A DNA stretch of 64,000 nt. Source: Rhizodiscina lignyota (taxonomy: Eukaryota; Ascomycota; Dothideomycetes; Aulographales; Rhizodiscinaceae). The notes under the pieces were generated by a model. The model saw only the letters and a list, made by a program, of their open reading frames with translations, made no database searches and was not told the origin of the DNA. The DNA is taken from NCBI GenBank assembly GCA_010015805.1, contig ML978121.1, positions 2,852,001 to 2,916,000 of the forward strand, read 5' to 3'. Positions 41,810 through 45,602 of the stretch are shown here, in pieces (position 1 is the first letter of the stretch; every line of letters begins with the position of its first letter). Both the position numbers and the translations under genes were made by a program.

Positions 41810-42719
41810 TTAGGGAATTTCTGGCCAGATAAAGGTGTCTTCTGTTGGCGGCTCAAGGAAGTCAAGCGGAGCCTCATCCTGAGGCGGCAACTGATGCTTC
41901 TCCGCCCACGCTCGTACAGCATCGAAATTCCTGCACTTGTGCCGAGTGTTGAAATCGACAAATGCAGTCGGCTCGTCCTTATTCCACCAGACCTGACCCA
42001 GTACGCCGATGTCGACCGAACACATCAATTGCTGCCTGAGTATGTCGAGACAGTGGCTGACATGGACCTTCACAACATACTCTTTGTTCTTGAAGGCACC
42101 TTGCCCTTTTTCACGGTAATAGTCAACATTGTAGTATAGCGCTTGCCGGACGAGGTTAAGACAGTGGAGATGATGCATGCCCTCGACGTTGGCAGGAAAC
42201 CCGCCGCCGTACTTCTCTTTGATTTTCACATGATCCTTCGTCAAACCAAAATTCGAGGCATGCTCCTTCGGAATGTGAGCCGCACGGTAGTCGACGCCGA
42301 GCGACTTCCACGCTTCGTCGACTTCTGGAGATGCTGAGCGGCGGAAAACGTTTTCGTGCATAAAGGTGCCATTGAAATCGACCGGAGCATAGGATATCGA
42401 TACATCTTTTGTGAGAGGAGCTGACGAAGCTGTTAGTATCCATTTCAGATAACAAATGGATAATCGTAGAGTTACATGGTTGAGACACATAGTCTAGACA
42501 GGCATCAGCTCGGTCTATTTGATGAACTCTGCCCAGAATGAATCCTGCCAAAGCGAACATAGTCATCCAGATGAAACCCACGAAGATATCGTAGGATGAG
42601 AAACGTATTGTCTTGGAACGTGGTGATTCATTCTGCGGGCTTGGGTTCAGTGATTCGCAGTCCTCCGGGGGGACTTGTGCATATGATGGTCTTCGTGACG
42701 GGAAAAACTTTTCGAGCAT
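41810..42719 (-). CDS. UstYa-family oxidase (DUF3328), putative RiPP-modifying enzyme
   Basis: Two exons (42719-42476, 42420-41810) give 284 residues. One membrane anchor lies at residues 44-63 (YDIFVGFIWMTMFALAGFIL). The lumenal part carries the two family-defining HXXHC motifs, HHLHC at 164-168 and HVSHC at 201-205, inside VEGMHHLHCLNLVRQALYYN and KVHVSHCLDILRQQLMCS. UstYa-type proteins perform oxidative steps, including side-chain cyclisation of ribosomally made peptides (ustiloxin, asperipin, phomopsin); others act in non-peptide pathways. The family link is clear; the substrate is inferred from the neighbour. It lies head-to-head with the repeat precursor at 44251, across 1.5 kb. Its left neighbour (Sec14-like) is housekeeping, so the locus border is probably near 41.6 kb. 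Confidence 0.93.
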
Positions 42720-44250
42720 CCTTTCGACCCTGTCGAAGCAAAGATAGATGAAATTGAGAATCAATGTAGAAGAGCAAGTAGACGAACTCAAGTCTGACGG
42801 CAAAATGGAAAGTAGAATCCTCAACGGCACCAATATCGATTAGTTTCACCAGACGCCTACACCATCTCGCTGATCTTTAACGTTCCATGTCGTGCAACTT
42901 TGGGGTAGCATTTCGTGTCACGAGCCTGGTCCGCAACCTCCTCAGCTATTGTTCACCGCACTTGTCATAGTATGCATAACAAGCTTCGTCTACTAACGAA
43001 AGAACAACCTTAGAATAGACATGGGAGTACGACATCCTCAGCTAAAGATCTGGATCCGCGAGGCTTGGAAGTATGCCTCAAATATGCATGGCTGCCAATG
43101 GTAGTCGATCTAATTTGGATTATGGAAGGAAGGAGCTTCTGTTCGGATTAGTTTGGCATAACTGAGGGAATGTGGGCATAAGGGCTTGAACCTGAATGCT
43201 GGAAAGTCCAGATTGGCAGCTGAAGTTGAGGGACGGAAGTGGAAAAGCGTCAGGTCTGGGGGCTTGAGCTAGCTGGAAACGGAAAAGCGCAAAGGACGGA
43301 GAACAACCTCAACCATATCTTGAACGCCAGGCTTTCTATTCACAGCCATCAATCTAATTTCATCACTTAGCTCACTAGAAAGCTTGCCTTCCAAAATGTG
43401 GAACAATTCTCTCAGCTCGCTAGCAGTATCCTATTCGGATAGGATAATGCAACCACCATTGTCTGCCTCACAACGTTTCTCGAAGTACATACGTTTCTCA
43501 AAGTGATCTCTAAGCTCGTAATTGTGGATAACTGTAACGACTCTTTCCAATACAATCTGTCTCAATTGTTTGCTTTTCTTTCGTATTCTTGACTGCCCCG
43601 AGGTACAAGTGCTTAACTGCAGCTATCCATCCGAAGACGAATCTCTGGGGAAGCTGAGGGTCCGCTAAGCACCATGCAAGGAAGCAAATAAGCTATCCCA
43701 GCGTGGTAGCACATACGCAATGGCTTACTCCACATGCGCCATTTCAATATCGCCAAGCGTTTAGATGCTGATGGCAAACATATCCACCTCTGTACCGCAA
43801 CCCAGATCCTCCATTAAGGAGATACCTCGCGATAACGGCCGAGTAGAGAATGCTCCTTGCGAGACCTACAGTGACCTCATGATGAGCACTCATGGAAAGC
43901 CAATGATGCACCGCAGAAAACAAATAGCGTAGTTTCTCACGACGCTTCGTCTAGACACGGCGATTGGTTAGTGCTGAGTGAATTCACGAACGGCGTGGAT
44001 GAGGTGAACCATGCATGGCCTCCGCCATGCTCCACCGTTGTATCCTTCGACGAGGCTAAGGAAGAGATGTTGCATCGCCTTCACCGACCCAGCCCTACAT
44101 CTGAGCACATTTTCTACGTACATAAGTCCCGCAGATCCGTACGGCGACTTTGAGTATCTCTCATATATAGTAGGACTTGGAGTTCTCGGTTTCCCCATCA
44201 AGGTCCAGCCAAACTTCAACGTAGCGTTCTCCTGACTGTACGATCTCGCG
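42720..44250. other. 1.5 kb divergent promoter region of the RiPP-like locus
   Basis: No gene is recognised between the UstYa-family gene and the repeat precursor. It is long enough for shared regulation of both. I see CT-rich stretches near 43540-43590 and the TATA candidate at 44164, but no clear operator-like palindrome. Confidence 0.5.
44164..44169 (+). promoter_or_regulatory. TATA-box candidate of the repeat precursor gene
   Basis: TATATA about 85 bp upstream of the precursor ATG, a usual distance for a strongly expressed fungal gene. Confidence 0.45.
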
Positions 44251-45602
44251 ATGCACACTTCCAACGTCTTCTGTGTCCTGGCCCTTGCCTTGGGCTCCAT
44301 CGCCGCCCCTGTGGCAGAGCCGGAGGCCAAGGCTGTGCCGGATGACTATGGAAACTACGGAAAATACGCTGATTACGGTGAGCTCCAGCAGCAAAGCGCA
44401 TTGTGATAAGCCTGAGTCCTCTTCTAAAGTTCATTATAGGATCTTACTGTGCCCCTGCAGGCGGATATGCCAGCTGTGAGCTAACTACATCACGCTGGAG
44501 GCTTTCAAATAGGATTCAATTTCTCTAATTAGATTTTACAGATGGTAGCTATAAGAAACGCAGTGCCGACGCAGCCCCCGAAGCCGCTCCAGAGGCAAAA
44601 GCAGGCTACGGATCCTACTCACCGTACAAATCATACTCCCCATACGCTTCGTACGGTATGAGATCGATTCTCCTGTTCTCAATTTTAACGCTGCTAACAT
44701 GCTCTCTGTACTTTCCAGGCAGTTATGAGAAGCGCAATGCTGAAGCAGAGCCTGAAGCGGCTGCAGAAGCAAAACCAGGCTACGGATCATACTCACCATA
44801 CAAATCGTATTCGCCATACGCGTCGTACAGTATGAAGTCGGCCATCCCCGTACCAAGGCTTAACGCTGCTAATATGCTCTTTACGCTCACAGGCCACTAC
44901 AAGAAGCGCAGTGCTGAAGCAGAGGCCGAAGCAGAGGCCGACGCAGCTCCAGATGCCAACTCGTACGGAAGCTACCCGTCGTACAAATCATATGCGCCAT
45001 ACGCGTCATACGGTACGAAGCTGACCCTCTTATACCAAGGTTAAACATGGTTAATATTCTCTTTATTATTCACAGGCCACTATAAGCGCGCCGCTGAAGC
45101 AGAGCCCGAAGCGGCTCCTGAAGCGGCTCCGGAGGCAAAGCCTGGCTACGGAAGCTATGCACCGTATGCGACATATGGTACGAAGCCTATTCTCATGGTA
45201 CTCACTTTGGACGCTACTGACGTACTATGTGTACTTTCTAGGCACCTACAAGAAGCGTAGTGCAGAGGCCGAGCCTGAAGCTGCTCCCGAAGCTGCCCCT
45301 GAGGCGGCTCCAGATGCGAAACCTGAGGACTACAAGGAGTATGGATCCTACGCACCATATGCGACATATGGTAAAAAGCTCCTCTCCTTGTTTCAAGCTT
45401 AAAAGCCACTAATATTCTCTCTGCGCTCTCCAGGCGACTACGGAAATCCGCAATACAAGGACTGTAAGCCACTCTTCCTCAGCTTTTTTGAACTCAACCA
45501 TCGTACTAACGAAGACCAACAGATGGCAAATACGGCACATATGATAACTACAAGCGTGATGCGAAGGCTGAGCCGGCACCAGTGGCTGTTGCTGAGGAAT
45601 GA
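44251..45602 (+). CDS. secreted Kex2-processed Tyr-rich repeat precursor (putative RiPP precursor)
   Basis: Nine exons (44251-44377, 44461-44475, 44542-44655, 44719-44829, 44893-45012, 45076-45177, 45242-45370, 45434-45463, 45523-45602) give 275 residues; all eight introns are phase 1. A signal peptide (MHTSNVFCVLALALGSIA) is followed by an acidic propeptide. Exons 3-7 each encode one unit: [S/H/T]Y, a basic site (KKR, EKR or KR), an Ala/Glu/Pro spacer, then a Tyr-rich core such as GYGSYSPYKSYSPYASY or GYGSYAPYATY. Six Lys-Arg sites in all would be cut by Kex2 in the Golgi. This is the layout of UstA-like dikaritin precursors, and a UstYa-family gene is its divergent neighbour. The alternative is a structural or repellent-type secreted repeat protein. 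The peptide product is unknown to me. Confidence 0.85.
44542..45433 (+). repeat. five tandem exon-plus-intron units
   Basis: Exons 3-7 and the introns after them form a tandem array. Exon lengths are 114, 111, 120, 102 and 129 bp; intron lengths are 63, 63, 63, 64 and 63 bp. The introns are alike, starting GTATGA, GTATGA, GTACGA, GTACGA and GTAAAA, with a branch-like GCTAAC/GCTAAT/GTTAAT/ACTAAT late in most of them. The whole genomic unit, not just the coding part, has been duplicated. Confidence 0.88.

Follow-up and report, generated by a model that had tools for sequence, protein, structure and literature searches.

A putative dikaritin-like locus of Rhizodiscina lignyota: a UstYa-family oxidase gene divergent from a tyrosine-ladder precursor gene

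A 64,000-nucleotide stretch of contig ML978121.1 of the fungus Rhizodiscina lignyota, a dothideomycete (positions 2,852,001 to 2,916,000 of the forward strand; the window) carries a gene for a UstYa-family (PF11807/DUF3328) oxidase head-to-head with a gene for a Tyr-rich precursor with repeated Lys-Arg (KR) sites, which raises the question of whether the two genes act together and, if so, what kind of peptide they would make. On balance, we lean towards the answer that Tyr-ladder peptides, released by proteases of the Kex2 and Ste13 types, are oxidatively modified, most likely cross-linked through Tyr, by a dicopper UstYa enzyme. The locus would then be a likely dikaritin-like one, i.e. one for ribosomally synthesized and post-translationally modified peptides (RiPPs), as the initial annotation of this DNA had proposed; the linkage of such genes elsewhere in this genome and, apparently, in Amylocarpus supports that proposal. 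Papers are cited by PMC number, and statements taken from them refer to the portions of their text that were available.

The precursor and its tyrosine ladder

The precursor gene, modelled from splice signals and repeat logic, has 9 exons (44251–45602, plus strand) and encodes 275 aa, with six KR sites between related repeats. After removal of the dipeptide tracks described below and trimming of terminal K and R residues, six cores were obtained (DDYGNYGKYADYGGYASYGSY, GYGSYSPYKSYSPYASYGSYE, GYGSYSPYKSYSPYASYSHY, NSYGSYPSYKSYAPYASYGHY, GYGSYAPYATYGTY and EDYKEYGSYAPYATYGDYGNPQYKDYGKYGTYDNY), whose exact ends are deduced and which, with the pro-region core counted, have sizes of 14, 20, 21, 21, 21 and 35 residues and contain 5–11 Tyr each. 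Within these cores, successive Tyr are spaced by exactly three residues in 37 of 38 gaps, forming a (Yxx)n ladder; none of 20,000 within-core shuffles reached 37 such gaps, the shuffled maximum being 16. With this spacing, an extended, polyproline-like strand would carry its Tyr side chains on the same side. Neither Trp nor a Y-x-I motif was found in the 275-aa precursor. The secreted precursor with six Lys-Arg sites described in the initial annotation was thus recovered; its core boundaries had to be abandoned, because introns interrupt the cores. Since the 13–14-residue Kex2 pieces of ustiloxin end up as a four-residue core (PMC6514808), the Tyr ladders too may undergo further cutting.

Exon 1 (44251–44377) encodes the hydrophobic N-terminus, predicted by hydropathy only to be a signal peptide, followed by a pro-track of XA/XP dipeptides and most of core 1 (DDYGNYGKYADYG...), and the 15-nt exon 2 (44461–44475), flanked by phase-1 GT-AG introns, lies within core 1. 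Exons 3 to 7 each carry one Kex2 site, one XA/XP track and most of one core: a KKR site and core 2 in exon 3 (44542–44655; GYGSYSPYKSYSPYASYG), a KR site and core 3 in exon 4 (44719–44829; GYGSYSPYKSYSPYASY), a KKR site and core 4 in exon 5 (44893–45012; NSYGSYPSYKSYAPYASYG), a KR site and core 5 in exon 6 (45076–45177; GYGSYAPYATYG), and a KKR site with only the start of core 6 in exon 7 (45242–45370; EDYKEYGSYAPYATYG). Core 6 continues in exon 8 (45434–45463) and ends in exon 9 (45523–45602), which also encodes the final KR site, an XA/XP tail and the stop codon; all exons are on the plus strand. The 8 introns are all GT-AG, all in phase 1 and 59–83 nt long, and a CTNAY element lies 17–25 nt before the 3' end in 7 of them, none being present there in intron 5.

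Every KR site is followed by 6–11 XA/XP dipeptides in perfect register (e.g. SA DA AP EA AP EA KA), and the segment behind the signal peptide is of the same style. None of 20,000 shuffles had all six spacers in register, a comparison that is partly circular, since the same rule had served to define the spacers. XA/XP dipeptides behind KEX2 sites are the published STE13 signature (PMC6339444), and the runs found here would represent a Ste13-type trimming track. Matches for the processing enzymes in the genome include one P_proprotein (Kex2-type), one DPPIV_N (DPPIV/Ste13-type) and 29 match pieces of S10 carboxypeptidases. A protein search with the precursor gave nine matches; because none was named R. 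lignyota and none was near-identical, the gene would seem to lack an annotation or to carry a very different one. No match to a second precursor copy was found in the genome beyond this locus at E≤1.

The repeat array itself indicates how it may have grown. Introns 3 to 7 (44656–44718, 44830–44892, 45013–45075, 45178–45241 and 45371–45433, spanning 44656–45433 on the plus strand) are 63–64 nt each and in phase 1, and share pairwise identities of 0.57–0.72 against a shuffled mean of 0.49 and maximum of 0.59, the weakest pairs (57%) falling inside the shuffled range. Exons 3 to 7 are mutually 57–79% identical and all terminate at the same phase-1 position within the core. Because both the introns and the exons are related among themselves, the array most likely grew by duplication of exon and intron together as one unit, as judged from these sequence comparisons. 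Cores 2 and 3 encode identical protein over 17 residues with 6 synonymous and no non-synonymous codon differences, cores 5 and 6 share 11 identical residues with 4 synonymous differences, and cores 2 and 4 differ by 4 synonymous and 4 non-synonymous changes among 18 codons. Since picking identical stretches favours synonymous changes, these counts support translation and constraint without constituting a formal test. Metagenomic relatives such as P0149 and P0152 seem, from their protein letters, to include translated intron sequence at a common YG|GxY position, a suggestion that one intron per repeat may be common to distant proteins of this kind.

The precursor belongs to the Kex2-processed repeat proteins (KEPs), and a profile made from the window protein and five matches, with the best 8000 candidates scored, found at least 42 proteins at E≤0.01. 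The 35 relatives inspected are mostly short and secreted-looking, with YGNYGKYGSY-like runs, the exceptions being P0003 and P0006, which look animal, and P0144, which is joined to a longer stretch of unrelated sequence. Named sources include Amylocarpus and Acephala (Leotiomycetes), Rachicladosporium and Aureobasidium (Dothideomycetes) and the sordariomycete Truncatella (P0147, E 1e-6), together with Oleoguttula, Cercospora, Ascochyta and Venturia, which we take to be Dothideomycetes; judging by these matches, Tyr-ladder KEPs are present in at least three fungal classes. The count of three-residue Tyr gaps was unmatched in 500 shuffles for 39 of 43 relatives and was reached in 2, 3, 5 and 36 of 500 shuffles for the remaining four, and at least one KR or RR occurs in 41 of the 43. 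The search for relatives used a Tyr-rich profile, which biases the frequency of the pattern upward; its spread is real.

The oxidase and its linkage to precursor genes

The UstYa gene (41810–42719, minus strand) consists of exon 1 (42476–42719), encoding an N-terminal tail and a single transmembrane (TM) helix, a 55-nt intron (42421–42475) and exon 2 (41810–42420), which carries both HxxHC motifs. The spliced product of 284 aa is 100% identical to the public R. lignyota protein NA57DRAFT_70906 (P0010) and matches the PF11807 profile over residues 40–257 with 193 bits (curated cut-off 25). It has a single prominent hydrophobic stretch (19-residue windows, starts at 40–50) and the copper-site motif HxxHC(x)nHxxHC, with HHLHC at 164–168 and HVSHC at 201–205, so that the UstYa-type protein with one TM segment and two HxxHC motifs of the initial annotation stands. 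All 32 aligned rows, which were hand-picked among the 120 matches listed, have the motif's four His and two Cys, and also C215 and C244, without exception. A monomer model (mean pLDDT 74, pTM 0.59) shows the TM helix at 42–65 and places the motifs on consecutive paired helices (163–186 and 195–214). In the published description of CctR, the two subunits of a dimer meet at a binuclear copper site formed by this motif, within an organelle lumen (PMC12435403), and the modelled layout of helices and motifs agrees with that description. Relatives in the PDB were found neither by sequence (E≤10) nor by fold (E≤0.001). By analogy, the protein is probably a copper- and O2-dependent (dicopper) oxidase.

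Relatives of the oxidase are numerous (587 proteins at E≤1e-30). Among the 120 matches listed, the 119 others share 49–74% identity with the window protein over 64–100% of its length. Their sources are many genera, which we presume to be Pezizomycotina, for example Aspergillus, Penicillium, Sclerotinia, Exophiala, Botryosphaeria and lichen fungi. In contrast, 24 UstYa stretches of the same genome (L013–L036) are only 25–44% identical to the window gene (best E 3.5e-26). Because its outside relatives are closer than these same-genome loci, the window oxidase is, on sequence comparison, a member of a UstYa subgroup that is widespread among fungi. In a tree built from 49 rows hand-chosen among the matches listed, it clusters with four sequences (support 100/99). 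Amylocarpus P0120 shares one clade (100/99) with Sclerotinia, Hyaloscypha and one of two Bisporella copies, and Acephala P0096 belongs to another (99/97), which includes the second Bisporella copy, Xylogone, Glarea, Cadophora and some fungi outside the Leotiomycetes.

The divergent arrangement of the two genes, reported in the initial annotation, was confirmed: they start at 42719 (minus) and 44251 (plus), 1.53 kb apart, leaving a gap of 1532 bases, and they show the clustering of a KEP with a UstYa gene that is expected of dikaritin-type loci. The region between them (42720–44250) is presumed to be a shared promoter. This orientation recurs in the genome (33.4 Mb, 29 contigs), where at least 76 PF11807 matches fall, at a grouping distance of 8 kb, into 36 loci. 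Thirty of the 35 other loci were examined as 20 stretches of 9.9 kb and 11 of 5–7 kb, roughly strongest first, two of these 31 stretches belonging to one locus. A KEP-type repeat array was present in 10 of the 30, eight detected in a first scan (L013, L014, L015, L016, L019, L020, L021 and L022) and two in later scans (L033 and L039), with cores such as ELYQNPSEKR, EEDPFKWDKTKR, NVDSTSQAEWDGGGDFAPDKR and EEANPLIVSQGYGIYRKEKR; the array of L016, which came up in the first scan alone, is irregular and has partial KR sites. Seven of these ten pairs are divergent, two tandem and one convergent (7/10 against one quarter expected, p=0.0035), and the gaps of the seven divergent pairs, taken between matched parts, are 965–2823 bases. 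Two of the loci are worth noting in their own right: L014 contains two different KEPs (repeats of ELYQNPSEKR and of FGDDEPWCKEKR), and the KEP at L015:1120–1986 has repeats (DAGCSVNLGYSYGCASSKR) with two Cys and two Tyr per core, an unusual combination, adjoining a UstYa gene.

Beyond this genome, linkage was assessed from contig sizes for 35 of the 42 KEP matches and from the 120 UstYa matches listed of 587. The only size common to both sets is 72,057 bases, that of the contigs carrying the KEP (P0002) and the UstYa protein (P0120) of Amylocarpus encephaloides; the two genes apparently share one contig, as judged from its size. The only named species in both sets are Amylocarpus, where the contigs agree, and Acephala, where they differ. 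The pairing in R. lignyota agrees with the survey of Umemura 2020, in which 1758 of 7878 KEPs (22%) lie no more than 15 genes from a DUF3328 gene, most often right next to it (PMC7329392). Because divergent pairs recur in the genome and the Amylocarpus contig apparently carries both genes, chance neighbourhood was rejected as the leading view, and the pairing looks functional.

Several observations nevertheless weigh against joint action of the two genes. The excess of KEPs near UstYa genes over window controls is weak when taken alone: KEP-like arrays were present in 0 of 6 other window chunks in the first scan and in 1 of 12 in the second, where the one hit was judged a coiled-coil false positive and another feature of the set is that one of the 12 chunks contains the end of the window precursor. 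For 10/30 versus 1/12, Fisher's test gave p=0.10, a rough value in that controls were 5 kb long and stretches 5–9.9 kb and that the ten pool the hits of two scans; these points tilt the comparison towards the UstYa loci. No KEP was detected by the repeat scans in 20 of the 30 loci examined. Linkage outside this genome was seen in one other species only (Amylocarpus), and the KEP (contig of 848,192 bases) and the listed UstYa (contig of 455,426 bases) of Acephala macrosclerotiorum lie on different contigs; this UstYa, placed in another clade of the tree than the Amylocarpus one, is possibly a paralogue. As the 587 UstYa relatives (E≤1e-30) outnumber the Tyr-ladder KEPs (at least 42 at E≤0.01), many proteins in this UstYa group may work with a different partner. 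Finally, tyrosinase is absent among the 16 neighbouring frames scanned with Pfam (part of the window genes).

Genes around the pair were also inspected. To the left are a CRAL-TRIO (Sec14-type) gene and the gene for DNA polymerase alpha subunit B; to the right are a Pro-kumamolisin-domain (sedolisin-type) protease, then a GOST/PTM1-like gene and a CTU2 gene. The protease gene (45939–47962, minus strand) is directly downstream of the precursor gene and convergent with it. Some members of the sedolisin family are tripeptidyl peptidases, and the position of such a possible tripeptidyl peptidase beside a three-residue Tyr repeat is curious. S41 peptidase and methyltransferase families were likewise not found among the 16 frames, which are mostly of housekeeping or general-purpose families, and membership of the pair in a larger cluster was rejected. 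A laccase-type multicopper oxidase with three Cu-oxidase domains (15590–17143, plus strand) lies 25 kb from the pair and was not counted as part of a cluster; a PTR2 transporter lies 37 kb from it. A 718-aa frame (21824–23980, plus strand) contains 218 Ser/Thr residues, two isolated KR sites and, by eye, a signal-peptide-like stretch, with no Pfam match at E≤0.001. A search for relatives of the locus among viral contigs and genome contigs confirmed none, as expected for a fungal gene.

A possible pathway and its rivals

If the two genes act together, the precursor would enter the endoplasmic reticulum via its signal peptide, Kex2 would cleave behind each KR, a Ste13-type dipeptidyl peptidase would remove the XA/XP dipeptides from the new N-termini and a Kex1-type carboxypeptidase would remove the C-terminal K and R. 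The output would be six peptides of about 14–35 residues with Tyr at nearly every third residue, released in the late secretory pathway. The UstYa protein, presumably anchored in a membrane of that pathway with its HxxHC...HxxHC site facing the lumen, would act on the Tyr residues as an O2-dependent dicopper oxidase. The Tyr side chains would most likely be joined to neighbouring residues, probably by ether or related links, so that the (Yxx)n ladder would become a macrocycle or a set of several. In this scheme, what we infer is the co-action of both genes, the oxidation chemistry, Tyr as its site and secretion. The UstYa-family enzyme of asperipin-2a forms ethers between Tyr-O and C-beta, and other members of the family are reported to hydroxylate, halogenate/chlorinate or dehydrogenate (PMC6514808, PMC12186524, PMC12435403).

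This range of activities leads to the rival that deserves most attention, namely that the UstYa enzyme modifies the peptides by hydroxylation, dehydrogenation or halogenation (e.g. converting Tyr to a catechol or to an alpha,beta-dehydro residue) and that the products stay linear. CctR is a hydroxylase and ApnU a halogenase (PMC12435403), phomopsins contain dehydroamino acids (according to a title cited within PMC12186524), and Tyr content alone cannot discriminate cross-linking from other oxidation. On the other hand, ether macrocyclization is the outcome linked to UstYa proteins on Tyr peptides in asperipin-2a, ustiloxin and phomopsin (PMC6514808), and the strict i, i+3 spacing would fit ring closure. 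We therefore regard linear oxidized products as unlikely, though a serious contender. It is more doubtful still that the peptides are secreted linear and unmodified, as pheromone-like, antimicrobial or Tyr-rich cell-wall/adhesive peptides, and that the adjoining UstYa enzyme has another substrate. Such a view draws on the 6120 of 7878 published KEPs that have no DUF3328 neighbour at a distance of up to 15 genes (PMC7329392), on the XA/XP tracks, which are typical of alpha-pheromone precursors (PMC6339444), and on the separate contigs in Acephala, but it is countered by the recurrence of the divergent architecture in the genome and the equal-sized Amylocarpus contigs. Moreover, Tyr is found in 65.6% of KEP repeats with DUF3328 neighbours as compared to 38.2% of those without, and Trp is reported for pheromone-type KEPs (PMC7329392), whereas the window precursor has none; an alpha-pheromone precursor as such was rejected on this ground.

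Extensins of plant walls are cross-linked between molecules through Tyr, and six multi-Tyr peptides per precursor, with their repetitive G/S/P/Y composition, could likewise be joined into a structural polymer or matrix instead of a defined cyclic product. Such an outcome seems very improbable, given that the described UstYa-linked products are discrete small cyclic peptides (PMC6514808) and that an enzyme site within the secretory lumen would favour discrete products.

Returning to intramolecular Tyr cross-linking, a bolder form of it can be imagined, in which a widespread class of fungal peptides owes its form to a single UstYa dicopper enzyme that is processive along (Tyr-x-x)n, linking Tyr i to i+3 on an extended strand with three residues per turn to give fused macrocycles, so that rigid, rod-like, polycyclic peptides arise from duplicating exon units in Dothideo-, Leotio- and Sordariomycetes and serve a conserved signalling or developmental role; taken as a whole, this picture is speculative and probably wrong in some part. 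Regarding function alone, because Tyr-ladder KEPs occur in several fungal classes, a conserved signalling or developmental role is no less plausible than that of an antibiotic peculiar to one species.

Comparison with known systems

A design with long cores that have Tyr in each third position, arrayed as exon units and spread over several classes, was not found in the searchable fungal literature, which was searched mainly by subject and outside of which lie the figures and supplements of the KEP surveys; some members may be listed there uncommented. A literature letter search for the repeat strings ygkyg, gygsy, ygnyg and ygsyg found none in the KEP and RiPP papers that it listed, the strings GYGSY and YGSYG occurring in an unrelated mung-bean proteomics paper. 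Letter checks within the available text of individual papers gave no matches for YGSY in PMC7329392, for KYG and YGS in PMC12048977, for KYG, YGS and GYG in PMC7099791, and for KYG, YGS, GYG and YGN in PMC6339444.

The locus is of interest in several respects. The UstYa substrates described in the available text are short cores that acquire one or two rings, and a core with 5–11 Tyr at near-exact spacing would be a natural multi-site substrate on which to see whether a DUF3328 copper enzyme is able to act repeatedly along a single peptide. With Tyr-ladder KEPs in several Pezizomycotina classes, the product may have a conserved role and not be the toxin of one species. The minimal two-gene pair could easily be tested in a heterologous host, and the genome's ten other candidate KEP-UstYa pairs, which have different cores, offer a compact set for enzyme-substrate comparison.

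Among known systems, asperipin-2a of Aspergillus flavus (aprA/aprY) shares with the window locus a KEP and a single UstYa-type oxidase that acts, or here would act, on Tyr, AprY being copper- and O2-dependent (PMC6514808, PMC12186524, PMC12435403). However, its core is the hexapeptide FYYTGY and its cluster includes aprT and aprR, whereas the window pair has (Yxx)n cores of 14–35 residues and no gene of the aprT or aprR type was recognized directly beside it. Ustiloxin and phomopsin loci resemble it in the signal peptide, the many Kex2-cut repeats, the UstYa proteins and the core Tyr, but have short Y-x-I cores (YAIG, YVIG and YVIP), two and five UstYa proteins, respectively, and a tyrosinase (PMC7329392, PMC6514808); the window locus has no Y-x-I in its cores and one UstYa gene. 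Ascomycete alpha-pheromone precursors and other KEPs with the STE13 signature also have Kex2 sites followed by XA/XP tracks (PMC6339444). Pheromone-type repeats contain Trp motifs and, barring three exceptions, lack a DUF3328 neighbour (PMC7329392), in contrast to the window precursor with Tyr at every third residue and its UstYa neighbour. The Tyr-rich KEP types S-5, G-5/P-1, G-6 and G-10 of Umemura 2020 are similar in containing Tyr and having DUF3328 neighbours; compared by description only, they differ in that the available text mentions D near Y and no three-residue Tyr period (PMC7329392).

The product had been proposed to be of a new type in the initial annotation. This holds for the sequence pattern and does not hold for the pairing, as KEP-UstYa pairs are common (22% of KEPs, PMC7329392; 10 of 30 loci in this genome). 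The kind of locus, a KEP with a UstYa protein in a dikaritin-like arrangement, is already known, and it is the Tyr-ladder design that is unusual.

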